Assembly (NCBI RefSeq): GCF_030056735.1
Contig: NZ_JASHKN010000010.1
Location: 14,122 to 78,121 of the forward strand
Reading direction: 5' to 3'
Length of the DNA: 64,000 nt
Source: Rhodococcus sp. IEGM 1409
GTDB lineage: Bacteria; Actinomycetota; Actinomycetes; Mycobacteriales; Mycobacteriaceae
Shown: one piece after another, positions 3,842 to 62,535 of the stretch
How positions within the stretch are numbered: position 1 is the first letter of the stretch
Layout of the letters: each line of letters opens with the position of its first letter
The notes under the pieces: generated by a model
The model's input: only the letters and a program-made list of their open reading frames with translations
Database searches by the model: none
Told to the model about the DNA's origin: nothing
Position numbers and translations under genes: made by a program

Positions 3842-7015
<3,174 letters not shown>

Positions 7016-7035
<20 letters not shown>

Positions 7036-39225: not shown

Positions 39226-41160
39226 TTAGTTCACGTCAGAGCGGGTAGCGACCACAAATGGACCCTGCTCTGTGACGGTGAAACGAGGATCGTCGAACAG
39301 TTCCTTGGGGAACGTGACCGTGTACCGGCGGACGTTCGGGTCGTTGGGGTAGACGTCCTCGGCCAACCGCAGTGTGTACCCGTCGGCGCCCTGGCGGAAG
39401 ACGAAGGCGTCGGGGCTGCGCCACGGCGCCGAGTCGAGCGCAGCTATCAATTCGTCAGGGGTCTTCAGTTCCGACCACTGCTCGATCAGCGCGGCGCGCG
39501 CACGGAAATCGGCGAGGGGGTTTGCGTAGTGCGATGTCAGCCCTTGGAAGCCGAAGTACGGGTAGAAGCTCAGGAAGCCGATGTCGGCGGTGAGCACCAC
39601 TGTGTCATGGGGTTCGCGTCCCAACTGTTCGCGGATAATCCGGTCGATGTCGGCGTAATTGGCTTCGGCACCCGGGGGTCGCTTGTCTCCGCGCTCGCCG
39701 TTGCCATCGGTATCGCTGTATGCCACAGCGATATCCGGCGCCAGCACCTGCGGGATGTTCTGCGCGAAAGCGATGGTTCCGATGACACCGAGTGCCACCA
39801 GCACCGCTTTGACTCGGGGATTCTCGCTTGTGGCCAGCACGATCCAGCCTGCGAACTCGAAGAAACCGAACACACCGGCGGCCGCGAGAAGTCCGATCAG
39901 AACCGGCTCGAGCCGGAATCCGAGGAGCGTGCTGCCGGCAACGGTGAACGTCATGGACAGCAGCGCCCACAGGTACACGGCGATGACACCGATACCGAGT
40001 GCTCGGGCGCGGCGGGAGAACAGGAACCGCGAAATCAGCCAGACCGTGCCGAGCAGGCACAGGCCGCCGACGAGCGAGAAACTCAGCATCGGGAAGGGCA
40101 GCACCGCACCGGAATCTGGGAGGTAGTGCATTGCGGTGCCGGACTCTGCGGTGGCACCGGAGAGTGCCTTCAGCAGGTACGGCGTCCAGACGGTCAGAGC
40201 TACCAGACCCGAGATGATTGCAATTACTGCAAGTCGAATGAGGGGTCCCAGTGCAGCTTTCCAGGTGTTCTGGGCACGCGCGGCGAGCACTGCCGCGACC
40301 AGGGCCATCAGAGTCACTGCGAACGCGGCGAATCCGAGGTACAGCGTGTAGACGGTTGCGGCAAAACCGAGGAACAGGCCCGTCCCCAGTATTGCGCCGG
40401 CTCCGGCAAATCGAGATGCACCCGGGCGATCGAGCGCACCCCACGCCAGGATCAGCACCGGCGGGATCAAGAGGTTGATGACGGCGCCGTACGCCTCGGG
40501 AGAGTTGTACGCCAACACGACGGCAGTGACGGCCAATGCTGCGACGACGGCCCAATCGCGTCGAATCAGCTTGGTCCACAACACGAGTGCAACGACGGCG
40601 ACGACCGCCAGGGAGCCGATCGCGTACGGCTTGAACGCTTCCCAACCGTCCATGCCCAGCAGGTTCGCGACGCGTCCACCGACCCAGAACCAGCCGGCCG
40701 GGTAGAACGGCGGCAGATCCACGTACGTCATGTCCTGCAGCGCAGCAGAATCCGTCAGCCGGGTCAGGTACTCGGTGCGGAACTGCTGATCGACCGAGAC
40801 CCCGTGCAGATACAGACTTGTCGCGGCCAGGGGCAGACCGAGCGTCGTGGTGACAAAGCCGGAGAGCCCGGCCCACGAGAGGAGTTTTGCGATCCGCTCG
40901 GCCTTGCGGGCGCGGAACATCAGAACCGCAACGCCGACCACTGCGATGCAGAGCACCTGCAGCACCGTCGTGACTGCCTGCGTGACGTTGGAAGAGGTGA
41001 ACGCCGGCCACTGAACTCGGCCGAAAGCAAAGAGCCCGACAGCGGCTACAACAGCGGCGACCAGCGCTCCGAGGGCCATTTCCACCACCGTCGCCGTGGC
41101 ATTACGCCACGGCGACGGGGTCGAAAGGTCTGTACTCGGAGCAGTTGTTGTTTCTGGCAC
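39226..41160 (-). CDS. aftA: Galactan 5-O-arabinofuranosyltransferase AftA
   Basis: A 644-residue GT-C enzyme, close to the 643 residues of Rv3792, that places the first arabinofuranose on galactan and so primes arabinan synthesis. It has about eleven hydrophobic helices. The extracytoplasmic motif YVDLPPFYPAGWFWVGGR lies near residue 150, and a soluble C-terminal domain starts near residue 470. It begins nine bases after dprE2 on the same strand, so dprE1-dprE2-aftA is an operon. In M. tuberculosis embC would follow; here a TetR gene and a 5-kb block separate them. Confidence 0.93.
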   Translation of the reverse strand: MPETTTAPSTDLSTPSPWRNATATVVEMALGALVAAVVAAVGLFAFGRVQWPAFTSSNVTQAVTTVLQVLCIAVVGVAVLMFRARKAERIAKLLSWAGLSGFVTTTLGLPLAATSLYLHGVSVDQQFRTEYLTRLTDSAALQDMTYVDLPPFYPAGWFWVGGRVANLLGMDGWEAFKPYAIGSLAVVAVVALVLWTKLIRRDWAVVAALAVTAVVLAYNSPEAYGAVINLLIPPVLILAWGALDRPGASRFAGAGAILGTGLFLGFAATVYTLYLGFAAFAVTLMALVAAVLAARAQNTWKAALGPLIRLAVIAIISGLVALTVWTPYLLKALSGATAESGTAMHYLPDSGAVLPFPMLSFSLVGGLCLLGTVWLISRFLFSRRARALGIGVIAVYLWALLSMTFTVAGSTLLGFRLEPVLIGLLAAAGVFGFFEFAGWIVLATSENPRVKAVLVALGVIGTIAFAQNIPQVLAPDIAVAYSDTDGNGERGDKRPPGAEANYADIDRIIREQLGREPHDTVVLTADIGFLSFYPYFGFQGLTSHYANPLADFRARAALIEQWSELKTPDELIAALDSAPWRSPDAFVFRQGADGYTLRLAEDVYPNDPNVRRYTVTFPKELFDDPRFTVTEQGPFVVATRSDVN

Positions 41161-47889: not shown

Positions 47890-48495
47890 TTACCGATTCT
47901 GCGAATCTTCGGCCACAAAACCGGGCAACAGGCCGTCTGCGCGGAGCGTCGCGAGGGATGGTGCGGCAGCGTCCTTTGCGGAGAGCTCGTAGGTGAGGGG
48001 GTTGCCGTTACGATCCCTCTTCGGCCATTCGATCGCGAGTTCCGGATCGAAGGGATCGAGGTCGCGGTCCAGGTGGGGGGAATATTCGATGCTGCACAGA
48101 TACATCACTGTCGATCCGTCTTCGAGCGAAAGGATCGCGTGGCCGAGGCCTTCCGCGAGGAATACTGCTCGTCGTTCGACGTCGTCGATCACCACCGCGT
48201 CCCACTCGCCGAAGGTCGGTGATCCGACGCGCAGGTCTACGACGACGTCGAGGAAGGCACCTTTCACACAGGTGATGTATTTCGCCTGTCCGGGTGGATC
48301 GTCGGTGAAGTGGATCCCGCGGAGGCTGCCGGCTTCGGAAACCGAGCAGTTGGCCTGGGCGAGGTCGAGAGTGCGGCCGGTCGCGGCGGTGAAGGTAGAG
48401 CTTTTGAACCATTCGAGAAAGACGCCGCGATGGTCGCCGAACTGCTTCGGCGTGATCTCCCAGGCTCCGGCGATTTTCAGTGGACGAATTTCCAC
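47890..48495 (-). CDS. rmlC: dTDP-4-dehydrorhamnose 3,5-epimerase RmlC
   Basis: A 201-residue cupin enzyme that epimerises dTDP-4-keto-6-deoxyglucose at C3 and C5 on the route to dTDP-L-rhamnose. Family blocks are FGDHRGVFLEWFKSSTF, the His in SLRGIHF and KGAFLDVVVDLRVGSPTFG. The GTG at 48495 has AAGGA at a good distance; the longer frame upstream overlaps rmlA and reads as shadow. It begins one base after the rmlA stop, so rmlA-rmlC is an operon. Confidence 0.95.
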   Translation of the reverse strand: MEIRPLKIAGAWEITPKQFGDHRGVFLEWFKSSTFTAATGRTLDLAQANCSVSEAGSLRGIHFTDDPPGQAKYITCVKGAFLDVVVDLRVGSPTFGEWDAVVIDDVERRAVFLAEGLGHAILSLEDGSTVMYLCSIEYSPHLDRDLDPFDPELAIEWPKRDRNGNPLTYELSAKDAAAPSLATLRADGLLPGFVAEDSQNR

Positions 48496-48496
48496 G

Positions 48497-49372
48497 TCAC
48501 CATTCCTTGCCGTGCTCGAGCAGTTCGAGTAGATAGTCGCCATACCCGGATTTGCCCAATGTTTCTGCCTGAGTGCGTAATTGGTCGGAGCTGATGAACC
48601 CCTGACGCCAGGCGACCTCTTCAGGTGAACCGATCTTGAGGCCCTGGCGGTGTTCGATGGTTCGCACGTAGTTCGCAGCTTCGAGCAGGGAATCGGGAGT
48701 GCCGGTGTCGAGCCACGCCGTTCCGCGAGGGAGGACGTCGACAGAGAGTTTGCCTGCCTCGAGATAGTGCCGGTTGACGTCGCTGATTTCGTATTCGCCA
48801 CGCGCAGAGGGCTTCAGAGTGCGTGCGATGGCCACGACGTCACTGTCGTAGAAGTAGAGGCCAGGGACCGCGTAATTGGATTTCGGTGATGTCGGTTTTT
48901 CCTCGATGGACACCGCCCGGCCGGAGTCGTCGAATTCGACGACCCCGTAGGCAGTCGGGTTCGACACCCAGTAGGCGAAGACCGCGCCACCATCGATGTC
49001 GGAGAAACGCCTGAGTTGGGTTCCGAGACCGGGGCCGTAGAAGATGTTGTCGCCGAGGACAAGCGCTACGGATTCGGATCCGATGTGATCCGCGCCGAGG
49101 GTGAATGCCGTTGCGAGGCCATTGGGTTCGTGCTGGATCGCGTACGTGAGATTCACGCCGAATTGTGAGCCGTCGCCGAGAACCCGGCGGAATTGTTCGG
49201 CGTCGTGTGGGGTCGTGATGATCAAGATGTCGCGAATGTCGGCGAGCATGAGAGTGGAGAGCGGGTAATAGATCATCGGCTTGTCGTAGACAGGCAAGAG
49301 TTGCTTGCTCACTCCGAGGGTGATCGGGTGCAACCGCGACCCGGTGCCACCGGCCAGAATGATTCCGCGCAT
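48497..49372 (-). CDS. rmlA: Glucose-1-phosphate thymidylyltransferase RmlA
   Basis: A 291-residue nucleotidyltransferase that makes dTDP-glucose from glucose-1-phosphate and dTTP. The N-terminal signature [16 protein letters not shown] and the [17 protein letters not shown] block are diagnostic, with [11 protein letters not shown] near residue 105 carrying the metal-binding aspartate. ATG 49372 starts exactly at the signature; an upstream in-frame start would add 15 residues. It is divergent from rmlB with a 98-base spacer, so three of the four rhamnose genes are clustered. rmlD is not in the window. Confidence 0.96.
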
Positions 49373-49432
49373 GCGTGCAGTGTCCTGCACTCCTGCCCGC
49401 CGATGCAAACGGGACATGGCGAATTCGGCCGC

Positions 49433-49438
49433 TAAAGT
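49433..49438 (+). promoter_or_regulatory. -10 element of rmlB
   Basis: TAAAGT fits TANNNT and would give a leader of about 26 bases that contains the GAGGAG ribosome binding site before GTG 49471. Confidence 0.45.
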
Positions 49439-49461
49439 GGGAGTTCGTTCGATGAGCCTGA

Positions 49462-50475
<1,014 letters not shown>

Positions 50476-50478
50476 GCC

Positions 50479-51498
50479 TCAGGCTTTGGTGGGGTCCGGC
50501 ACCCGGGAACGCTCGTGTACGAGTGCGTTGCGCAGGACTCGTGATCCGGACAGCGCAGCCACGACGCCGGCAAAGACCTCACAGAGGGTGAACAGCAGCC
50601 TCGACGCCAGTGCGAGGCCGAGCGCGACGCCGGCATCCATGAACGGCGAAAGCGCCGCGACGATGACGGCTTCGCGGACACCGATTCCGGACGGGACGAC
50701 AAACACGAGGACGCCCGCGCACATACCGAGGGCTAGAGCGCCGATGCACTCGACGAGCCCACGAATTTCGAATCCGGCCGAACTCGACGCGAGCAGCCAC
50801 AACTGGATGCCGTAGAGCACCCAGCTGGCTGCGCACCAGCCCAACGCGAGGGCGATCTTGTGCATCGTGAGCGGTTTGTGCAGTGGTGCGCGGCGGAGCA
50901 GTTTCAGTGCGAGGTTCACCAGGCGTGTGAGCACCGGCGGATACGCGCAGACAAGTGCGATCGGGACCAGGATGATCACGCCGACCGCGGCTACTGTGCT
51001 GACCTCGAACAGGGCGGGCAGACCGAAGAGTCCGACGACCAACGCCGAAGTTGTACTCAAACCCACCGTGACAAGTACCGCGACGAAACCTGCCGCCCGG
51101 GACACGCCGGCGCGCCTGACAAGTTCCGTTTGCAGAACGAATGCCCAGACGCTGCCGGGAAGGTACTTGCCGAGTTGGCCGACCAGATAAGCGCGCGCGG
51201 CGTCGAATGCCGGTATCGGTTGTTCGAGTGCGCCGAGTGCGTGTTGCCAGGCACGCACTGCGGCACCCATGCCGAGGAAGATGAACACAGACGAAGCGGC
51301 AAGCGTCCACCAGTTCAGCTCTGTGATCGTGTTCTTGACCTCGGACCATTGGGACTTCACCGCGAAGACGATCGCAACGACGATCGCGAGGGTGACGAGC
51401 ACCTTGAATCCGTTGACGAGAAGACCACGCAGCGCGTTCGGCGGTGCGGCCGGTTCGACGTCTTCGACCGGTTGTTCAGATTCGGGAGAGGTACTCAC
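50479..51498 (-). CDS. Flippase-like membrane protein (LPG synthase TM / UPF0104 family)
   Basis: A 339-residue polytopic protein with about eight helices, matching the lysylphosphatidylglycerol-synthase transmembrane domain family. Its signature motifs GQLGKYLPGSVWAF near residue 110 and VPSGIGVREAVIVAAL near residue 270 are visible, and there is no soluble synthetase domain. Members are proposed to move lipid-linked substrates across the membrane and often sit beside glycosyltransferases. Here it is next to nucleotide-sugar genes, so it may flip a polyprenyl-linked sugar. An acidic, disordered N-terminus of about 25 residues precedes the first helix. Confidence 0.8.
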   Translation of the reverse strand: MSTSPESEQPVEDVEPAAPPNALRGLLVNGFKVLVTLAIVVAIVFAVKSQWSEVKNTITELNWWTLAASSVFIFLGMGAAVRAWQHALGALEQPIPAFDAARAYLVGQLGKYLPGSVWAFVLQTELVRRAGVSRAAGFVAVLVTVGLSTTSALVVGLFGLPALFEVSTVAAVGVIILVPIALVCAYPPVLTRLVNLALKLLRRAPLHKPLTMHKIALALGWCAASWVLYGIQLWLLASSSAGFEIRGLVECIGALALGMCAGVLVFVVPSGIGVREAVIVAALSPFMDAGVALGLALASRLLFTLCEVFAGVVAALSGSRVLRNALVHERSRVPDPTKA

Positions 51499-51556
51499 GC
51501 GCCTGCATCCCGCCCGTTCGTCATTTCGCAGACGATACCAACCAGGATTTGCCTCG

Positions 51557-52273
51557 CTACACCACGAGCGGTTTGTCGGCGCGTTCCCGCCACCAGGTGA
51601 AGGCTTCCGACAGTGAGTCCGGAATGGCCGGTGACGTACCGAAGCTGCCCGCGGAGTAGACGGCTTCGATCGCAGCGATGTCTTCCTCCGAGATACCCGA
51701 TCGACTCATTCCGATTCGGTTGACACCGTGCAGTGACACCGGGTTGCCGAATGCTTTGGCGAAGGGCGGAACGTCCTTGACCACGACGGTTCCCATCCCG
51801 ACCATGGATCCGGAGCCGACGACGCGTCGTTGGTGCGCGACAGTGTGCATGCCCAGGTTGACGCCGTCTCCGACGCTGACATGCCCGGCGAGCGTCGTAC
51901 CGGATGACACGACGCACCGGTCACCGATCTGAACGTCGTGCTCGATTCCGACTCTGTTCATCACGAAGCAGTCCTCGCCGATTTCGGTTCGCCGTTCGCT
52001 GCCCTGGTGGACGGTGCTCAATTCGCGAATCGTCGTTCGAGCACCGATTCGAATTCCCAGACCGGCGCTGACGGACCAGGACGTGGGGTGCAGCGCGCCG
52101 AGGATCTCGGGGGGAGCTCCCAGTACCGTTCCCGCGCCGATCCAACAGTCGTCGCCGATCTCGAGTGGGCCGGTCAGTACGGCATTCGGCCCGATGGTCA
52201 CACCTGTCCCGATCAGTACGTCGGCGCCGATCGCGGCGGTTGGATGGATGTGGCAGTCGGCTCGTTCAGACAT
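51557..52273 (-). CDS. Left-handed beta-helix acyltransferase
   Basis: A 238-residue acyltransferase of the hexapeptide-repeat (LbH, LpxA-like) type. Repeats run from about residue 10 to 165 (AAIGADVLIGTGVTIGPNAV, then IGDDCWIGAGTVLG and IGDRCVVSSGTTLAG). A helical C-terminal region of about 60 residues follows. The HQGSERRTEIG and GIEHDVQIGDRC segments recall LpxA/WbpD-like enzymes that N- or O-acylate nucleotide sugars. It is divergent from a DegT aminotransferase gene, which would provide the amino group. Donor and acceptor are not known. Confidence 0.82.
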   Translation of the reverse strand: MSERADCHIHPTAAIGADVLIGTGVTIGPNAVLTGPLEIGDDCWIGAGTVLGAPPEILGALHPTSWSVSAGLGIRIGARTTIRELSTVHQGSERRTEIGEDCFVMNRVGIEHDVQIGDRCVVSSGTTLAGHVSVGDGVNLGMHTVAHQRRVVGSGSMVGMGTVVVKDVPPFAKAFGNPVSLHGVNRIGMSRSGISEEDIAAIEAVYSAGSFGTSPAIPDSLSEAFTWWRERADKPLVV

Positions 52274-52296
52274 GCGGGTTCCGGAATCCTCTCGAA

Positions 52297-52318
52297 GTAT
52301 CGAATCGTGTTTCGATAC
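52297..52318. promoter_or_regulatory. Perfect 8-6-8 inverted repeat between divergent sugar genes
   Basis: GTATCGAA (52297-52304) and TTCGATAC (52311-52318) flank TCGTGT. It lies in the 110-base spacer between the acyltransferase and aminotransferase starts and is well placed to control both. Confidence 0.55.
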
Positions 52319-52383
52319 GCTTCCTGGGTTGTCGGGGTATTTCGTTCCGACGACGGTCGGATGAATCTATCGGAGGTAACTCA

Positions 52384-53484
52384 GTGATCGCGATATCCAG
52401 TATCTCGTTCGGGGAAGAAGTCGAGCGCGAGGTGCTGGACACTCTGCGATCGGGGATCGTCGCGCAGGGACCCAAGGTGAAGCGGCTCGAGGACGAGTTC
52501 GCAGCGCTGGTCGGGACGCGACACGCGGTGGCGGTGAACAACGGCACGACCGCATTGATCGCGGCTCTTCAGGTGCAGGATCTTCAGCCCGGCGACGAGG
52601 TTCTGACCACGCCGTTCACGTTCGTGGCCACGCTCAATGCGATCCTCGAGGCGGGTGCGACGGCGAGGTTTGCCGATATCTCCGAGTCCGATTTCAATAT
52701 CGACCCTGCTGTCGCTGCCGATCGAATCGGGGAGCGCACGAAGGTTCTGATGCCGGTTCATCTGTACGGCCAGTCGGCGGACATGGATGCGTTGGTGCCG
52801 TTGGCATCGAAGAATGGTCTGACTGTCGTCGAGGATGCCGCTCAAGCGCACGGAGCGACGTTCGACGGGCGAGGCGCCGGCAGCTTCGGCGTGGGTTGCT
52901 TCTCGTTCTACGCAACGAAGAACCTCACGACCGCCGAGGGCGGAATGATCACCACCGACGACGATGCGATCGCCGATCGACTCCGTGTCCTGCGTAACCA
53001 GGGGATGCGGGCGCGCTACCAGTACGAGATGGTCGGCCAGAACTACCGGATGACCGATCTTCAGGCGAGCTTGGCTCTGCCCCAGATGGCGACCTACATG
53101 CAGCAGGTCGAGGCCCGTCGACGCAATGCGGAGGCCTTGCGCGTAGGCCTGAAGGACGTCGAAGGACTGATCTTGCCGAGCGAGCTGCCGGGCCGCGGAC
53201 ATGTCTGGCATCAGTTCACGTTGCTGCTGGCCGAGGACGCACCGATCACTCGCGATCAGTTGAGCGAGCGTCTGGCCGCGAAGGACATCGGTAGCGGCAT
53301 CTACTACCCGAAGGCCGTCTACGACTACGAGTGCTACCGCGAACATCCGCGCGTCGTCGTCGAGGAGACGCCGGTGGCCACTTCGGTGGCATCGCGGTGC
53401 CTGAGCATCCCCGTCCACGCTGCGTTGTCCGCCGGCGACGTCGATCAGATCGTTGCCGCAGTACGCGGCGCCATGGAGGCCTGA
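52384..53484 (+). CDS. DegT/DnrJ/EryC1/StrS-family aminotransferase
   Basis: A 366-residue PLP enzyme that aminates a keto group on a nucleotide sugar. The internal aldimine lysine is in FSFYATKNLTTAEGG near residue 184, preceded by VVEDAAQAHGA with the pyridine-binding aspartate. AVNNGTTALIAAL near residue 50 and NYRMTDLQASLAL complete the family pattern. GTG 52384 is chosen because GGAGG lies nearby upstream. The oxidoreductase start is two bases after its stop, so the pair is an operon. Closest functional models are WbpE/FdtB-type sugar aminotransferases; the actual sugar is unknown. Confidence 0.9.
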   Translation: MIAISSISFGEEVEREVLDTLRSGIVAQGPKVKRLEDEFAALVGTRHAVAVNNGTTALIAALQVQDLQPGDEVLTTPFTFVATLNAILEAGATARFADISESDFNIDPAVAADRIGERTKVLMPVHLYGQSADMDALVPLASKNGLTVVEDAAQAHGATFDGRGAGSFGVGCFSFYATKNLTTAEGGMITTDDDAIADRLRVLRNQGMRARYQYEMVGQNYRMTDLQASLALPQMATYMQQVEARRRNAEALRVGLKDVEGLILPSELPGRGHVWHQFTLLLAEDAPITRDQLSERLAAKDIGSGIYYPKAVYDYECYREHPRVVVEETPVATSVASRCLSIPVHAALSAGDVDQIVAAVRGAMEA

Positions 53485-53486
53485 AA

Positions 53487-54467
53487 ATGACTGCTAGCAA
53501 GCCACGTATCGCCCTCGTCGGATCCGGTCAGATGGGCTCGCTGCATGCGCGGGTCATCGCACAGTCGGCACTGTGTGAGTTGGATCTGCTGATCGAGCCG
53601 CGCGAGGAGCAGGGCAAAGCTGTTGCTGCGCGGTTCGATACGCGTTGGGCCGCAGATTTCGACTCGCTCGACGGTATCGACGCCGTGGTGATCGCCGCGG
53701 CTACGCCCGCGCACTACGAGTTGGCCGGGCGGGTTCTCGATCTGGGTAAGCCCGTCCTGGTGGAGAAGCCGTTGGCGGCGACGTACGAGCAGAGCGTCGA
53801 CTTGGTCGATCGTTCACGCGCGTCCGGTGTTCCCCTGATGTGTGGACTGCTCGAACGGTTCAATCCCGCTGTCCGCACCGCCCGTGAGTTCTCCGGCGAT
53901 GTGTGGCAGGTGAACGGTATCCGCCACTCTCCGTTCGTTTCCCGCATTCCGACGGGTGTCGCGACGGACCTGCTGATCCACGATATCGACCTTGCCATCG
54001 GATTTGCCGGTTCGGAACCCAGTTTGGCAAAGGGGGAGTTCGGCTACTTCCATCCGACGTCCGTGCAGAACCGGTCGGAAGATTGCGCCGACGCCGTACT
54101 GCGGTTCGGATCAGGGGCTGTTGCAACGATTTCCGCGAGCCGAATCAGTCAGCGCAAGATTCGCCAGCTGTCGTTGCTCGAGGCCGATCGACTCATCGAG
54201 ATCGATCTCTTGCGTCGCGACATCACCATCTACCGGCACATCGACGACAACATGCCTACCGATCGCGACGGCTACCAGCAGCAGACAGTCATCGAAATTC
54301 CGACGATCCGTTACAGCGAGGAACCCCTGGCCGCGCAGCTGACGCATTTCCTCGGATTGGTGCAGGGCACAGGTGATGCCGACGGTGAGCGGGCGTCGAT
54401 TCTGCCCGCTCACCGCGCGGTTCACGAAGTGACGGAATCTGCGTTGGCTGCGGCGTTGTCGTCCTGA
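53487..54467 (+). CDS. Gfo/Idh/MocA-family oxidoreductase
   Basis: A 326-residue NAD-dependent dehydrogenase. The Rossmann motif VGSGQMGSLHARV is at residue 11, the conserved EKPLA is near residue 91, and the C-terminal domain has a candidate catalytic histidine in DLLIHDIDLAIG. In amino-sugar pathways such enzymes (WbpB-like) oxidise a sugar C3 hydroxyl for the following transamination. That matches the adjacent aminotransferase. Its 3' end overlaps the convergent YfhO-like gene by 46 bases, the largest tail-to-tail overlap in the window. Confidence 0.88.
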   Translation: MTASKPRIALVGSGQMGSLHARVIAQSALCELDLLIEPREEQGKAVAARFDTRWAADFDSLDGIDAVVIAAATPAHYELAGRVLDLGKPVLVEKPLAATYEQSVDLVDRSRASGVPLMCGLLERFNPAVRTAREFSGDVWQVNGIRHSPFVSRIPTGVATDLLIHDIDLAIGFAGSEPSLAKGEFGYFHPTSVQNRSEDCADAVLRFGSGAVATISASRISQRKIRQLSLLEADRLIEIDLLRRDITIYRHIDDNMPTDRDGYQQQTVIEIPTIRYSEEPLAAQLTHFLGLVQGTGDADGERASILPAHRAVHEVTESALAAALSS

Positions 54468-56632
54468 CCGCTGCGTCGGCGTCGGAAGGCCCAGGCTCCT
54501 TGCGAGAGTGCCAGGAGTAGTCCGACGCCGGCGACAGTCCATCCGAAAGTGCTTCCGGGTGGACTGAATTCGATGGTGAGGGCAGATCCGGACGCGGCAC
54601 TCGGCGGTAGATCGACCTGCAACAACCCGCCGGGGCTCGCCTTCGTTTCGACCGTCTGACCATCTACAGTCGCGGTCCAGCCGGGCCAGGCGAGCAGGGC
54701 GAATGTCACCGTGCCGGACCCGGTGTACTCGACGGTTTCCCGGGTGTCCGTAGCGGCAGCATCGCCACGCACGTCGAGACCAGGCGTCGTTACGGATACG
54801 CGGCCGTCGGGCCACTGATGCTCGGTGGTGCGATGGCCGACGGTAACCATCCGATCCGGCGATACGGTCCACTCGCCTTCGGGTAGGGCGTCGAGGGCGC
54901 GTTTTCCACCGTACGGTCCGGAATTCTGAACTACGACCGTATCGATACGCATCGCGTCGAGCCAGGACACTCCGGTGCCCGGTGATTCGGCGAGCAGTCG
55001 GTCGACGCCGTCCGGACACTGGACGCCGCCGTAGTAGTTCAAGCACAGCGCTTGAACAAAATCGTTGTAGCTGATTCCGGCGTAGCTGTTGACGGCATTG
55101 ACACCGGCCGGCTGCCAGGCGCTGCCGAACAGGAGGTCACCCCACTGCCCGGTTTCATTGTCCGGCGGAATGTTGACGGGGTCGGCGATCGCGAAAGTAG
55201 TTCCCTGGTAACGGTCCTCGAACTTGGACTCGAGGAACGCCACCTGCCTGGGGAACTTCCACGGTGTCACGTTGTAGTTCCCGGTGAACCAGAAATTGGT
55301 CTGGGCGCTGAGCACGACGACGATGCCGACAGCGAGGGCGCCGGCGAGGTAGCGCGGTTTACGGTAGGCCACAACCAACGCGAGAACGGTGAGAACCACG
55401 GTGATGAGCAGTGACGCCGAGTGAATGCCGATATCTTCCGGGACATTCGACCAGGCAAGATAGAACTGAAGTGCCAACAATCCCGCGGTGATGATTGCTC
55501 TCGTCTGGATTCGGTCACGATGTAGTCCGGCGGAGAGGGCCACCGCCGTGACCACGATGGCGGGCAGTTGACCGTACTCGAGCAGTCGCGCCGGCCAACG
55601 GAACAGCCAGAGATTCGACGGTCCGAGAAGCAGCACGACGTAAATTCCGCCGAAGACGAAGAGCGAGACGCTGTGGCGGCCCAACTTCTTCAGTGACTTC
55701 CATTGAATCCACGGTGCGAGCGGTATGAGGAACCAGGCCAGGTACACCAGTGGAATTGTCATGGCGGGCAAAGCGAAAGCGGTGACGTACGGCTGGTTCG
55801 ACGGACCGGAGAGGTTGAGCAGATCACCGAGATCGGGTCGAAGCGAACCGTCGTTCGCGATTCCGGACTGGGTACGCACCGACACGCCGGTGGTGAACAG
55901 CAGTGGTAGGTACACGATCAGCGACATCATGATGATCGCTGCCGCGCTGATCATCAGTGATTTGATGCTGCCTGCGCGTTTGACGGCGATGCATTCCGCT
56001 ATGACAGCGAGGTAGACGACCGCGACACCGACTGCGCCGTACGGGTTGCCGGTGGTCATCGCGAGATAGCCGAAAATGATCGGTACCAGAGGGTTCACCC
56101 GGCCGAGCGCGCTGGCGCGAGTGGACCACCAGACGTGAGGGATCCAAGCGAAGGCGATCAGCCCGGACGCCCAACTGGACGCGTCGAAATAGAGCGTGTA
56201 TCCGGCGAACGGCATGGCAAAGCCGGCGATGAAAGCCATCGACCGATTGGCGCCGTACTGGCGGGCCACCAGGTAGACGCCCACCGCGAGTACTGCCATG
56301 AACTGCATTTTGACCAGCGTGATTCCGATACCCAGGTTCGGAATGAGCGCAATGGCAACCGAATCCAGAAGGATCACGGGATTGTAAGTCCCGTAAAGGG
56401 CTTCGGCGGTGACGTTGCCGCCGGCCCACAATTCGGGAATGAGCGTCGGCCACGAACCGGACAGGATTCGCTCGCCGATCGTGTGCCAACCAGGCGTGAA
56501 AGCTGCTGCGCTGTCGTCCCAGTAGTAGAACCACCGGTTGGAGATCAAGGGGATGGCGGCCACGATCGACACCAGAGCGGCGAGAAGAATTGGCGGCACC
56601 ACGCGTTGTGCGAGCGATAAGTCAGATTTCAC
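54422..56632 (-). CDS. YfhO-like polytopic membrane protein
   Basis: A 736-residue membrane protein with about twelve to fourteen helices, then an extracytoplasmic domain from about residue 470 and a final membrane helix followed by a basic tail. The first outer loop carries WFYYWDDSAAAFTPGWHT, whose acidic pair is where GT-C enzymes keep their catalytic residues. YfhO-type proteins are suggested to transfer sugars from polyprenyl phosphate to wall or lipid-linked polymers. A GT2 gene that could make such a donor is divergent and adjacent. Acceptor unknown; it may be equivalent in role to the mycobacterial GT-C protein Rv3779. Confidence 0.75.
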   Translation of the reverse strand: MKSDLSLAQRVVPPILLAALVSIVAAIPLISNRWFYYWDDSAAAFTPGWHTIGERILSGSWPTLIPELWAGGNVTAEALYGTYNPVILLDSVAIALIPNLGIGITLVKMQFMAVLAVGVYLVARQYGANRSMAFIAGFAMPFAGYTLYFDASSWASGLIAFAWIPHVWWSTRASALGRVNPLVPIIFGYLAMTTGNPYGAVGVAVVYLAVIAECIAVKRAGSIKSLMISAAAIIMMSLIVYLPLLFTTGVSVRTQSGIANDGSLRPDLGDLLNLSGPSNQPYVTAFALPAMTIPLVYLAWFLIPLAPWIQWKSLKKLGRHSVSLFVFGGIYVVLLLGPSNLWLFRWPARLLEYGQLPAIVVTAVALSAGLHRDRIQTRAIITAGLLALQFYLAWSNVPEDIGIHSASLLITVVLTVLALVVAYRKPRYLAGALAVGIVVVLSAQTNFWFTGNYNVTPWKFPRQVAFLESKFEDRYQGTTFAIADPVNIPPDNETGQWGDLLFGSAWQPAGVNAVNSYAGISYNDFVQALCLNYYGGVQCPDGVDRLLAESPGTGVSWLDAMRIDTVVVQNSGPYGGKRALDALPEGEWTVSPDRMVTVGHRTTEHQWPDGRVSVTTPGLDVRGDAAATDTRETVEYTGSGTVTFALLAWPGWTATVDGQTVETKASPGGLLQVDLPPSAASGSALTIEFSPPGSTFGWTVAGVGLLLALSQGAWAFRRRRSGQDDNAAANADSVTS

Positions 56633-56668
56633 GATGTGCTTTCGTCTTCGAGTCGATGGCTGTTGTCA

Positions 56669-56720
56669 GAGCCTGGGTCGTGCTCTTTTTCTCGGAGCCT
56701 GGGCTGCGCCTTGTTTCTCG
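56669..56720 (+). repeat. Imperfect 26-bp tandem duplication
   Basis: Two head-to-tail 26-base units (56669-56694 and 56695-56720) share 20 of 26 bases; both begin GAGCCTGGG and end TTTCTCG, and a third copy starts with GAGCG. They sit immediately upstream of the -10 of the GT2 gene. Confidence 0.55.
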
Positions 56721-56725
56721 GAGCG

Positions 56726-56731
56726 TAGTAT
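56726..56731 (+). promoter_or_regulatory. -10 element of the GT2 gene
   Basis: TAGTAT fits TANNNT and would give a leader of about 40 bases that includes AAGGAG before GTG 56777. The tandem 26-bp repeat occupies the position of the -35 region. Confidence 0.45.
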
Positions 56732-56776
56732 TCCGACGAGTTCGAACTGCAGTCGGGGAAGTAAGGAGATCGGGAC

Positions 56777-57586
56777 GTGGCGATATCGCGGACGGAACCC
56801 GTTCGTGGGGAATCAGCTACGCCGGAACTCTCGGTGATCATCCCCGCATACAACTCAGCCGAGGTGCTGGAGTCGACGGTGCGTCAATTCGCCGAGTACT
56901 TCACCAGCCGCCCGGCCGAGAGCACCGGGCAAGTCGAGATCATCGTCGTGGAGAACGGTTCGACGGACAACACTGCCGATGTATGTGCCGCTCTGGCGGC
57001 TTCCTGGTCGTGGCCGGGAGTGAATTTCCGTCCGATGAGCAGCGACAAAGGAATGGGTGCAGCGCTTCGCGCCGGGACGCTTGCTTCTCGTGGACGGCGC
57101 GTGTTGCTCACTGCGGACGATCTTCCGTTCGGTTTCGGTGACATCGAAGGGGCCGACCGCGTGATGGCGGACCTAGGGTCCGTCCCGCCCGTGGTCATCG
57201 GTTCGAAGGCTCATTCGGACTCAGAGGTGGAACGGGGCTTGTTGCGTTCGGTGATGACGGGTGGATTTGCGACGCTGCGACGGGTGGTGCTGGGCACCCG
57301 CACGGGCGACCCTCAGGGAACTTTTATCGTCGACGGCGTTTTGCTGCGTCGAATCGCACCCTCGTTGACCGAGCGTGGTTTCCTTTTCACCACCGAATTG
57401 GACTACGCGCTCGAATTGGCCGGGGTGCGCCCGGTCGAGGTCCCGATCCGACTCAGTGACGATCATCTGGCACATGCGAGCCGTATCTCGCCCAAGGACG
57501 TGATCCAGATGGCGAAGGGTTTGTTGTCGCTTCGCCGGCGAAAGACCGAGCTGCAGGCCGCCGCTGCAGTGAGTAATCGCGGGTAA
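56777..57586 (+). CDS. Family 2 glycosyltransferase
   Basis: A 269-residue GT-A enzyme of the dolichol-phosphate-mannose-synthase-like group. The nucleotide-binding start LSVIIPAYNSAEVLE, the VVENGSTDNT strand, the TADDLPFGF region in place of the usual DxD, and FLFTTELDYALELA with the catalytic-acid region are visible. No membrane helix is present. Such enzymes charge polyprenyl phosphate with a sugar for use by GT-C transferases; the YfhO-like protein is divergent. The acceptor and sugar are inferred, not shown. Confidence 0.82.
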   Translation: MAISRTEPVRGESATPELSVIIPAYNSAEVLESTVRQFAEYFTSRPAESTGQVEIIVVENGSTDNTADVCAALAASWSWPGVNFRPMSSDKGMGAALRAGTLASRGRRVLLTADDLPFGFGDIEGADRVMADLGSVPPVVIGSKAHSDSEVERGLLRSVMTGGFATLRRVVLGTRTGDPQGTFIVDGVLLRRIAPSLTERGFLFTTELDYALELAGVRPVEVPIRLSDDHLAHASRISPKDVIQMAKGLLSLRRRKTELQAAAAVSNRG

Positions 57587-57632
57587 ATCTGGTGTGACTC
57601 GGTGCCCGGGGCGCCGAGGTGCGGATTCGCGA

Positions 57633-57638
57633 TACCCT
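57633..57638 (+). promoter_or_regulatory. Leaderless -10 element of the second GlfT2-like gene
   Basis: TACCCT, preceded by GA exactly as before glf, is followed by seven bases and the GTG at 57646. Confidence 0.45.
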
Positions 57639-57645
57639 GCGGGGC

Positions 57646-59520
57646 GTGGATACCGTGAACACGACCGATGACCAGTCCGATTCCGAAGTCGAGTTGATCG
57701 AACGCAGCGCGACGTCGGATCGTCTGTTGGCGCAGCGGACGTTGTTCACCGGAACTTCGCCTGTCGCCAGTGACGAACTGTATGCGGTGACCAAGGTCGG
57801 AATGTCGACGCGATCGCGGTTCGAGTTGCGGCTTCAACCGGGGGCCGTCGCACACACCAACACCTTCTTCGGTCGATTTCCGGCCAGCTACTGGCAGCGC
57901 TGGACCAACGTCACCGAGGTCACCGTCACCGCGCACGTTGTGGCCGATACCGCTTGCCGCATCCAAATCCAGGCCTCGGACATCGGTGGTCACCGCCGGA
58001 TCGTGACGAACGTCGTCGTGACCGGCGACGAACGAGTGTCCATGACCGCCCCGCTCGATACCTTCGTCGACGGCGGGGCGCTGTGGCTGCAGTTCGAAGC
58101 GCAGGGTGGCGGCGCGGTAGTCGACGACGTGGAATGGACCGTCGCCTCGCCGGAGTCGATTCGCCCGGTAGCCGTGGCGATCTGCACGTTCAATCGTGCG
58201 GACGACTGCGCACGCACGGTCGAGGCCCTCGCGTCCGACGAGCGTGTACTCGCGTTGCTCGACGCTCTGTACGTCGTCGATCAGGGAACGGATCCGGTCG
58301 AGAGCCGTGAGCTGTTCCAGGAAGTGTCGAAGAAGTTCGGTTCGCGGTTGCAGTATCTGCGGCAGGCGAACCTGGGTGGTGCTGGCGGATTCACGCGGGG
58401 CCTGTACGAAGCGTCGGCGGCCGGACCGCACGCCGACGTGATCTTGATGGACGATGACATTCTGTGCGAGCCCGAATCGGTTCTTCGACTGAGTGCGTTC
58501 GCGAACATGACGACGGAGCCGGCTTTGATCGGCGCCCAGATGCTCTTCCTGTTCAACCCCGACTTCCTGTTGGCTTCGGGTGAACGCGTCGATCTGGGCA
58601 CCCTGCAGCGTGGTGTACCGACCGACGAGCACGGTGTTCGCAACCGGAGTGTGCTCGAGAAGCTGCCGGAACGTCGCGTGGATGCCGAATACAACGGCTG
58701 GTGGTCTTGCCTGATCCCTGCTGAAGCCATCGAGCGGATCGGATTGCCACTGCCGGTTTTCTTCCAGTGGGACGACGTCGAGTACAGCTTGCGGGCCGGG
58801 CGGGCCGGGATTCCCACCATCACGTTGCCTTCGGCTGCTGTGTGGCATGCGGACTTCTACTGGAAGGACGTCGACGGTTTTGCGCACTACTTCAGTACGC
58901 GCAACGGACTCATCACCGCTTCGCTCGACCCGGGGTTTGCACCCAAAACTCTCGCGAAGCAGCTCTCCCGGGACATTTCGCATTCGATCGTGGGTTTGCA
59001 GTACGGCCTTGCGCACACGCAACTCCGGGCGATCGAGGGATTCCTCGAGGGGCCGGCAGGTTTGGCGGATGGTGGGCAGAAGGCGCTTGCCGCGATCAAC
59101 CAGGAGCGTAAGCGCTTCCCCGAGACGGTAACTCGCCCCGCGTCGGAGCTGCCGGGAAGGCTGCCGATCCGTCGCGTTGCGCCGAGCCCGAAACCTGGTC
59201 TGTGGACAGACCTCGTTCTCGCGAAACGTGCTGTGACGCAGGCGCGTAACCACCTCGAACGGGGTCCGGTGGCGATCTCGTACGAAGACGCGCAGTGGTG
59301 GCACGTCGGACGTTTCGATCACGTCTTCGTCACCGATGCTTCGCAGGGAGGCGTGCGTGAACGCCGCTTCGACAGCGAGAAGGCCGCCGAGATGAGCGGC
59401 CGCCTCGCCGGCGTGATGAAGAGGTTCCTCGCCGAAGCGCCAAGTGTTGCTGAGGCATTCGCTCGGGAATTCCCGCAGCTCACCAGCCGGGAGAACTGGG
59501 CTCGCCTGTACGAGAAGTGA
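57646..59520 (+). CDS. Second GlfT2-like galactofuranosyltransferase
   Basis: A 624-residue paralogue of GlfT2 with the same three-part build: a beta-rich N-terminal domain with FGRFPASYWQRW (compare FNAFPASYWRRW in GlfT2), a GT-A core, and a helical C-terminus. Catalytic elements are kept: VILMDDDILCEP, QWDDVEYSLRAG and VWHADFYW, plus the NLGGAGGFTRG acceptor-side loop. The polymerase could build a distinct galactofuran or extend side chains. M. tuberculosis, as I recall, has only one GlfT2. GTG 57646 fits the promoter; GTG 57619 and 57655 are alternatives. It ends three bases before a convergent gene. Confidence 0.85.
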   Translation: MDTVNTTDDQSDSEVELIERSATSDRLLAQRTLFTGTSPVASDELYAVTKVGMSTRSRFELRLQPGAVAHTNTFFGRFPASYWQRWTNVTEVTVTAHVVADTACRIQIQASDIGGHRRIVTNVVVTGDERVSMTAPLDTFVDGGALWLQFEAQGGGAVVDDVEWTVASPESIRPVAVAICTFNRADDCARTVEALASDERVLALLDALYVVDQGTDPVESRELFQEVSKKFGSRLQYLRQANLGGAGGFTRGLYEASAAGPHADVILMDDDILCEPESVLRLSAFANMTTEPALIGAQMLFLFNPDFLLASGERVDLGTLQRGVPTDEHGVRNRSVLEKLPERRVDAEYNGWWSCLIPAEAIERIGLPLPVFFQWDDVEYSLRAGRAGIPTITLPSAAVWHADFYWKDVDGFAHYFSTRNGLITASLDPGFAPKTLAKQLSRDISHSIVGLQYGLAHTQLRAIEGFLEGPAGLADGGQKALAAINQERKRFPETVTRPASELPGRLPIRRVAPSPKPGLWTDLVLAKRAVTQARNHLERGPVAISYEDAQWWHVGRFDHVFVTDASQGGVRERRFDSEKAAEMSGRLAGVMKRFLAEAPSVAEAFAREFPQLTSRENWARLYEK

Positions 59521-61638: not shown

Positions 61639-62535
61639 TTAACTCGGACGTTCGAACTTTTCTTGCCGGCCGAGTTTGCGCAGTCGCATCCACTCGCGCA
61701 GTCCTGCCGGATCGCGGCGTGTGATCAGAAAGTACCAGCCGAACCGAACCCATTCCTGCGGAAGCAGTTTCCGCATTCCCGGTTGGGCGAGGATGTATCC
61801 ACGGTTGCGGTACGTGAAGTAGCGCTTCGTGTCGTTGTCGGGGTACTGCGTGTGCATGCGTCCGCCGAGGATCGGCTTGAACTCGTCCGCGCCGTTGGGG
61901 TGGACGTAAGCAGTTTGCAGGCAGGTACCGAACTTCAGGCCGGAACGCACGAGGCGACGGTGTACCTCGACCTCGTCGCCGCGGACGAACAGGCGTAGAT
62001 CCGGAACTCCGACGGCATCGATCGCGTCGGCGGTGAACAGTGCGCCGTTGAAGAGAGACGCGATACCGGGCAGGAGATCCTCGTCGCCGAGTTCGGAACG
62101 CAATCGGCGCCACGACGTGCCGCGGCGCAGTGGGAAAGCGAGGCGGTCGGGGTTGTCGATGTCGCAGACGACGGGGGAGACCTCGGCCAAGTCGTTCCGA
62201 ATTGCACAGTCGAGCAGTGTTTCCAGGACTTCGGGGCCCTCCGGGCGCCCGTCGTCGTCGGCGAGCCAGACGCGGTCGGCGCCGAGCGAAAGTGCGTAGA
62301 GAATGCCCAGAGCAAATCCTCCGGCACCGCCGAGATTGTGCTGAGAACCGATGTAACTGGTCGGCAGTGGAGCGCTGTCGACCAGCTCTTTCACATCAGC
62401 TTCGTCGGCATTGTCGACGACAACCAGATGATCGAGCGGACGCGACTGGGTGCTGAGGACCTTCAAGGATTCGGCCAGCAGTTCACGACGCTTGTGCGTG
62501 ACGACGACCCCGATGATTTTCTCGGGTGCGCTCAC
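61639..62535 (-). CDS. glfT1: Galactofuranosyltransferase GlfT1
   Basis: A 298-residue GT2 enzyme (Rv3782 is about 304) that adds the first galactofuranose residues to the rhamnosyl linker before GlfT2 takes over. The start VVVTHKRRELLAESLKVL, the loop IGSQHNLGGAGGFALG, the DDD triplet in WLADDDGRPEG and FVRGDEVEVHRRL are typical. Its ATG overlaps the Wzt-like gene by four bases, so it is the third gene of an export/priming operon. The 5' neighbours are the transporter that moves the finished galactan lipid. Confidence 0.93.
   Translation of the reverse strand: MSAPEKIIGVVVTHKRRELLAESLKVLSTQSRPLDHLVVVDNADEADVKELVDSAPLPTSYIGSQHNLGGAGGFALGILYALSLGADRVWLADDDGRPEGPEVLETLLDCAIRNDLAEVSPVVCDIDNPDRLAFPLRRGTSWRRLRSELGDEDLLPGIASLFNGALFTADAIDAVGVPDLRLFVRGDEVEVHRRLVRSGLKFGTCLQTAYVHPNGADEFKPILGGRMHTQYPDNDTKRYFTYRNRGYILAQPGMRKLLPQEWVRFGWYFLITRRDPAGLREWMRLRKLGRQEKFERPS

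Follow-up and report, generated by a model that had tools for sequence, protein, structure and literature searches.

Within the 64,000-nucleotide stretch of Rhodococcus sp. IEGM 1409 DNA analyzed here (the window; GCF_030056735.1, NZ_JASHKN010000010.1 14,122-78,121, forward strand; all coordinates are positions within it), positions 50479-57586 hold a block of six genes whose products probably synthesize an unusual amino sugar bearing an acyl group and add it to a polymer of the cell wall. The genes encode an LPG_synthase_TM membrane protein (LPG_TM), an LpxA-like acyltransferase of the LbH type, a DegT aminotransferase, a Gfo/Idh/MocA oxidoreductase (Gfo), a large YfhO-like membrane protein, and a family 2 glycosyltransferase (GT2). 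The evidence tilts toward this block being one allele of a cell-wall decoration locus that makes an acylated amino sugar and can be exchanged. It can be read as a serotype-like decoration locus, a variant of the transmembrane glycosylation systems.

Co-occurrence and order of the six genes

The LpxA-like gene is present in 25 of the 251 genomes of a family sample (E<=1e-20) and in 21 of the 150 genomes of a sample of the taxonomic order (E<=1e-10; six of the 21 are short partial matches and were left unused). Prevalence is given for the same genus only, which contributes 21 genomes to the family sample: 14 carry the gene and 7 lack it. In a hand-chosen panel of 50 genomes, half with the LpxA-like gene and half lacking it, the genes for Gfo, LPG_TM, and GT2 each occur in exactly the 25 that bear it. 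YfhO is found in 35, namely those 25 and 10 others with more distant types (29-39% identical). The co-travel of the genes that the initial annotation had called for checking is thus borne out: four genes have an identical distribution and lie on the same contig as DegT and YfhO. Chance adjacency of the six genes was considered and rejected on the matching genome distribution of Gfo, LPG_TM, and GT2.

Gene order leads to the same conclusion. In each of the 24 family relatives, the piece that was fetched shows DegT and Gfo next to the LpxA-like gene in an unchanged arrangement (the presence of DegT being judged from these pieces rather than from a genome-wide search of its own). All six genes fall within the piece in 23 of the 24, and in the remaining one (L059) YfhO and GT2 lie outside the piece on the same contig. 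Named carriers include R. qingshengii, R. opacus, R. wratislaviensis, R. koreensis, R. ruber, and two Rhodococcoides species. The block is more than a set of chance neighbors, as relatives with LpxA-like proteins of only 54-60% identity keep its order.

A wider survey kept 80 named loci out of at least 393 relatives. The sugar-making trio (LpxA-like, Gfo, DegT) is present in 69 of them; 58 of these also have an LPG_TM homologue, and 15 have all six genes at the set thresholds, every one of the 15 from Rhodococcus or Rhodococcoides. Therefore the trio, often with LPG_TM, is a wider actinobacterial unit, and the full six are the Rhodococcus-type arrangement in this set. Some trio loci have other neighbors. 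In Actinokineospora and Haloechinothrix (L129, L153, L155, L158) the trio also lies near GlfT2-like genes. In L132, L135, L142, and similar Amycolatopsis loci its neighbors include a second DegT and an RmlB-like protein (27-33% identical to the window proteins), which suggests another polysaccharide cluster.

Exchange of the slot

The slot that holds the module, bordered on its left by rmlB, is polymorphic, a feature absent from the initial annotation. Its content is altered in all seven same-genus genomes that lack the six genes. Five of these (L077-L081) have a different YfhO (29-31% identical) and a different GT2 in the slot, joined in L077 and L079 by epimerase-type and methyltransferase-like genes; Pfam supports the epimerase in both genomes, and it supports the methyltransferase in L077, where alone that gene was scanned. 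The other two (L176, L177) have no decoration module there, and the slot contains an apparent FAD oxidoreductase and a cupin-type regulator (the regulator confirmed in L176). Elsewhere in the family, L076 carries YfhO and another GT2.

The borders of the exchange are abrupt. When the close relatives L077 and L078 are aligned to the window by blastn, identity is 92.4% up to 47894 and then 74% across rmlC-A-B, is undetected across the module, is 68% over part of the neighboring GlfT2-like gene, and resumes at 90.2-90.3% from 59473 and 59469, the end of that gene. Thus, in these two genomes the second GlfT2-like gene has been swapped along with the slot. A genome with the window's own allele (L053) aligns at 93.4% throughout. 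L079 is more distant, with flanks at 74-83%, and similarity is regained at 57626, close to where the GlfT2-like gene begins. In all three of L077-L079 rmlB itself has been exchanged.

Gene trees, built as quick ones, support exchange of the slot between strains. In the tree of the flanking methyltransferase (22 rows), the nine R. erythropolis-group rows fall together with a support of 99. In approximately unbiased (AU) tests this grouping is rejected by RmlB (p-AU 0.0017), RmlA (0.026), and the GlfT2-like protein (1.8e-6); the clade was picked after the identity table had been seen, so these are not strictly prior tests, a point that counts against the exchange reading. The five rows of the allele designated B group as a clade in the RmlB tree (support 95); for RmlA a clade of the five is not rejected (p 0.057), and for the GlfT2-like protein it is. 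In L087 and L076, YfhO and the GlfT2-like protein are both of the R. opacus type, and the methyltransferase and RmlB are not; this joint type hints at the product of the GlfT2-like enzyme as the target of YfhO. Ordinary divergence or gene loss in place of exchange, which the two genomes that simply lack the module (L176, L177) would fit, is disfavored as very improbable by the abrupt identity changes and the conflicting trees.

Other gene sets are also seen at this position. In L178 (7612-11001) and L179 (9170-12625) the same slot is occupied by GtrA, GT2, and DUF2142 genes, and the DUF2142 protein could be a GT-C transferase. A small exported-looking protein adjoins rmlB in L058 (7969-8568), L060 (7957-8589), L062 (7973-8566), and L076 (13083-13676); in L076 it bears repeats of the GNVGSANTG kind.

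The putative sugar-making trio

The LpxA-like protein reaches the cut-off of neither curated LpxA model (NF003657, Table 1; TIGR01852, 160.8 bits against 231.05), and a NeuD-type model scores it lower than both, at 109.2 bits. In a PDB sequence search the best 18 of its 32 matches are LpxA-type chains. An alignment of 26 rows shows H112, D113, H147, Q148, and N185 to be invariant, and H131, M160, and R191 are kept in at least 90% of the rows. The invariant residues are what we take to be the catalytic His-Asp (H112-D113) and His-Gln (H147-Q148) of LpxA and its conserved Asn (N185). The protein also has a near-invariant Met at its putative ruler position, presumably the chain-length ruler of LpxA; PDB chain 5dem, which we take to be the C10-selective P. 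aeruginosa LpxA, has the same residue.

The best curated model for Gfo is the UDP-N-acetylglucosamine (UDP-GlcNAc) 3-dehydrogenase NF040723, scored far under its cut-off (Table 1). Its best PDB match, 7bvj, is titled only "Oxidoreductase, NAD-binding" and is presumably GnnA; a literature search on 7BVJ/7BVK found no paper. For DegT, whose start is a GTG preceded by GGAGG, the best PDB matches are perosamine synthases.

By sequence likeness, then, the trio enzymes resemble GnnA, GnnB, and LpxA rather than WbpB, WbpE, and WbpD; likeness is claimed, not membership. The Wbp enzymes had been proposed as the nearest model, and this has to be replaced. WbpD in particular was rejected as the closest acyltransferase, the PDB matches being LpxA-type instead. 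Lipid A synthesis was likewise rejected: a search of the organism's own genome for LpxC gave no match, with the LpxC control positive in 4 of 14 genomes. A literature search combining LpxA-like proteins, actinobacteria, and GlcNAc3N found nothing.

Candidate loading, flipping, and transfer proteins

Simple hydropathy scans give five transmembrane (TM)-like segments for the LPG_synthase_TM protein and eight for the YfhO-like protein. GT2 matches the GtrB-like phrog_841 (9.2e-11) over residues 17-181 and has four weak matches in a PDB sequence search; a profile comparison with TM-bearing GT2s gives 97.7%, a value that indicates the GT2 family and not carrier specificity. The YfhO-like protein matches PF09586 over a C-terminal stretch only, and its PDB sequence search returned only three chance matches. 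An acidic motif near its N-terminus, of the kind looked for in GT-C glycosyltransferases along with many TM segments, is picked up by a regular expression in 11 of 18 homologues; by eye, the motif is DD in L104 and GD or ED in L063, L070, L076, L080, and L087, and none was seen in L141. Judged by gene content and co-occurrence only, the locus has the linked GT2, membrane protein, and GT-C candidate genes that mark a multi-component transmembrane glycosylation system.

Proposed pathway and alternatives

For this block, an amino sugar with an acyl group, carried out on a lipid and placed on a wall polymer, had already been suggested. As a linked pathway it is supported by co-occurrence, gene order, and family likeness; we infer the chemistry and the acceptor. 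Gfo would oxidize C3 of UDP-GlcNAc, and DegT would aminate the oxidized sugar to give UDP-GlcNAc3N. The LpxA-like enzyme would then N-acylate the new amine, yielding a 3-N-acyl-GlcNAc3N, with a short acyl or acetyl group favored. GT2 would transfer the sugar onto polyprenyl phosphate, the LPG_synthase_TM protein may aid loading or flipping, and the YfhO-like protein would pass the sugar, outside the membrane, to a galactofuranose-containing polymer. The second GlfT2-like enzyme may help to build this acceptor.

Several observations weigh against this reading. The LpxA-like, GnnA-like, and YfhO scores are all under curated cut-offs. The His found three residues before the catalytic His in both printed LpxA chains is Gly here, and the Glu found two residues after the conserved Asn in both is Ile. 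GT2 has no TM-like segment by hydropathy scan, and four GT2s tested from other loci have two each. The full six are missing in 54 of the 69 named trio loci (among the 80 kept). The pairing of YfhO with a GlfT2-like type is not strict, as the allele B YfhO stands beside three GlfT2-like types; moreover, GlfT2-like genes are found in L176-L179 and L181-L183 with no YfhO near by.

The most serious alternative, somewhat unlikely yet substantial, is that the module decorates a target other than arabinogalactan, such as a glycolipid, a lipoglycan, a separate polysaccharide, or proteins. The evidence on the acceptor consists of gene neighborhood and shared inheritance, and most of the kept trio loci outside Rhodococcus have no GlfT2-like gene near by, which would suit such a target. 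Against it, the module lies beside a second GlfT2-like gene and glfT1, and YfhO and GlfT2-like types have been exchanged jointly in L076 and L087.

A Wbp-type route is considerably less probable. Here the product would be a 3-acetamido uronic acid derived from UDP-GlcNAcA, or its non-acid acetyl analogue, and the LpxA-like enzyme would be a plain acetyltransferase. WbpE chains do occur among the DegT PDB matches (E 1.4e-52 and similar), and the genome has two UDP-sugar dehydrogenases above cut-off. These dehydrogenases, however, are on another contig (C57), and among the matches listed at E<=1e-6, 20 for Gfo and 32 for LbH, no chain bears the name WbpB or WbpD.

It is also doubtful that the trio and the YfhO/GT2 pair are neighbors with separate roles. 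Most non-Rhodococcus loci have the trio without YfhO or a window-type GT2, and YfhO-like genes occur without the trio, as separate roles would predict; among the 50 panel genomes, however, the window-type GT2 and LPG_TM are confined to the 25 with the trio. A similarly small chance is given to a bolder form of the decoration-locus reading, in which the LpxA-like enzyme would add a fatty acyl group to GlcNAc3N. Rhodococcus would then lipidate a galactofuranose wall polymer with a lipid A-like sugar, joining wall and outer membrane independently of mycolates, and the module would be swapped in serotype-like fashion, probably under phage pressure.

A dTDP-sugar route is improbable. In it, DegT would aminate the product of RmlB, and the resulting dTDP-amino-6-deoxyhexose would be acylated. 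The adjacent rmlB and the perosamine synthases at the top of the DegT matches speak for it. Yet it leaves Gfo without a role despite the identical genome set, the acyltransferase resembles LpxA, a UDP-GlcNAc family, and elsewhere the trio occurs with no close RmlB.

Gene layout and the second GlfT2-like gene

The features of the locus and its flanks are collected in Table 1. Open reading frames and family searches give a count of six genes, and their alternating strands (--++-+) show that they are therefore not one operon. The initial annotation placed seven adjacent genes between rmlB and glfT1. The block, its gene families, and the rmlB border hold, and the count and the right-hand border do not: the next gene, at 57619-59520, was rejected as glfT1 on its GlfT2 model scores and because the true glfT1 lies elsewhere. 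Rightward the order is the GlfT2-like gene, a TylF-like methyltransferase, an RsgA-like GTPase, and the true glfT1; leftward lie rmlC, an rmlA-like gene (a name that comes from the translation alone, with no family search behind it), and rmlB.

Table 1. Features of the decoration locus and its surroundings in the window
Feature	Positions	Strand	Basis
LPG_synthase_TM (PF03706) membrane protein, flippase or loading-partner candidate	50479-51498	-	75.6 bits, cut-off 33.4
LpxA-like LbH acyltransferase	51557-52273	-	LpxA model 170.7 bits, cut-off 226
DegT aminotransferase, putative GnnB-like role	52384-53484	+	PF01041 389.4 bits, scored on longer reading frame
Gfo/Idh/MocA oxidoreductase, putative GnnA-like role	53487-54467	+	NF040723 119.6 bits, cut-off 450
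YfhO-like large membrane protein, GT-C transferase candidate	54422-56632	-	PF09586 24.0 bits, cut-off 28.5
GT2, lipid-carrier loading candidate	56777-57586	+	PF00535 58.0 bits
Second GlfT2-like galactofuranosyltransferase	57619-59520	+	GlfT2_domain3 72.0 bits, Glft2_N 63.5
rmlB, left border gene of slot	49471-50475	+	TIGR01181 462.8 bits, cut-off 365.1
rmlC and rmlA-like genes, within exchanged block	47890-49372	-	rmlC PF00908 182.9 bits
Block replaced in L077 and L078, approximate extent	47895-59468		blastn identity breakpoints
True glfT1	61639-62535	-	534.7 bits, cut-off 330
glf and glf-linked glfT2	3860-7035 (GlfT2 itself 5122-7035)		275.0 and 218.4 bits (same two GlfT2 models)
AftA	39226-41160		

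The protein of 57619-59520 shares 32% identity with the glf-linked GlfT2, has weaker Pfam scores, and is not of the same type; it retains the DDD, WDD, GWW, and WH motifs. Among 14 chosen genomes, the 57619 type is present in eight (43-77% identical), seven of which also have a distant copy (35-37%), and the distant type is present alone in six (33-35%). G158 gives a single GlfT2 match at E<=1e-60, which belongs to the 57619 type (51%) and adjoins glf; because of this, the 57619 type may serve also as the main polymerase. For the window, a swap of the main galactan polymerase itself was rejected, since a separate glf-linked GlfT2 was found at 5122-7035.

Relation to known systems

YfhO proteins act on wall polymers in concert with a flippase and a GT2 that loads the lipid (PMC8035078). 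The CsbB-GtcA-YfhO system shares with the window a carrier-loading GT2, a membrane protein, a YfhO-like GT-C candidate, and a wall polymer as (here, proposed) target. The window differs in having a dedicated sugar trio, LPG_synthase_TM in place of a GtrA flippase, a GT2 without TM-like segments, and surrounding galactan genes that include a second GlfT2-like gene. GnnA and GnnB convert UDP-GlcNAc to UDP-GlcNAc3N (PMC5644692), and the lipid A route that they form with LpxA uses the same three enzyme types; the window proteins, in contrast, score under the equivalog cut-offs, in a genome without an LpxC match and in a wall-polymer gene context.

In M. tuberculosis, galactosamine is added to arabinogalactan by PpgS/Rv3632/Rv3779, which have homologues in C. 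glutamicum, and infection of C. glutamicum by phage Cog needs arabinogalactan modification genes (PMC9671496). This system, too, puts an amino sugar on a polyprenyl carrier and transfers it outside the membrane; its donor, however, comes from UDP-GlcNAc/GalNAc epimerization and its genes differ (the window YfhO was not directly compared with Rv3779). Nocardia nova galactan carries glucose (PMC12794489), so that here, too, galactan in a mycolic-acid bacterium bears a side sugar, although a neutral one, and the genes are not named in the text of that source at hand. Judged by titles and abstract openings, no description of the six-gene locus was found among the papers listed by the literature searches, some of which listed only part of their matches.

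The organism's own genome has, on contig C22 (L086:8946-13432), another YfhO, accompanied by a TM-bearing GT2 and by a DegT that exceeds the cut-off for dTDP-4-amino-4,6-dideoxygalactose transaminase (496.9 against 375). Homologues of all three are present in L084 and L085, and the set is probably another decoration system.

A variable decoration slot fits the known decorations, which vary by genus. The block exchange of decoration genes, in some strains together with the second GlfT2-like gene, suggests that Rhodococcus wall glycans vary like a surface antigen, and the proposed pathway would place lipid A-type sugar chemistry in a mycolic-acid bacterium. Genes and strains are now named for a comparison of wall glycans and phage sensitivity.

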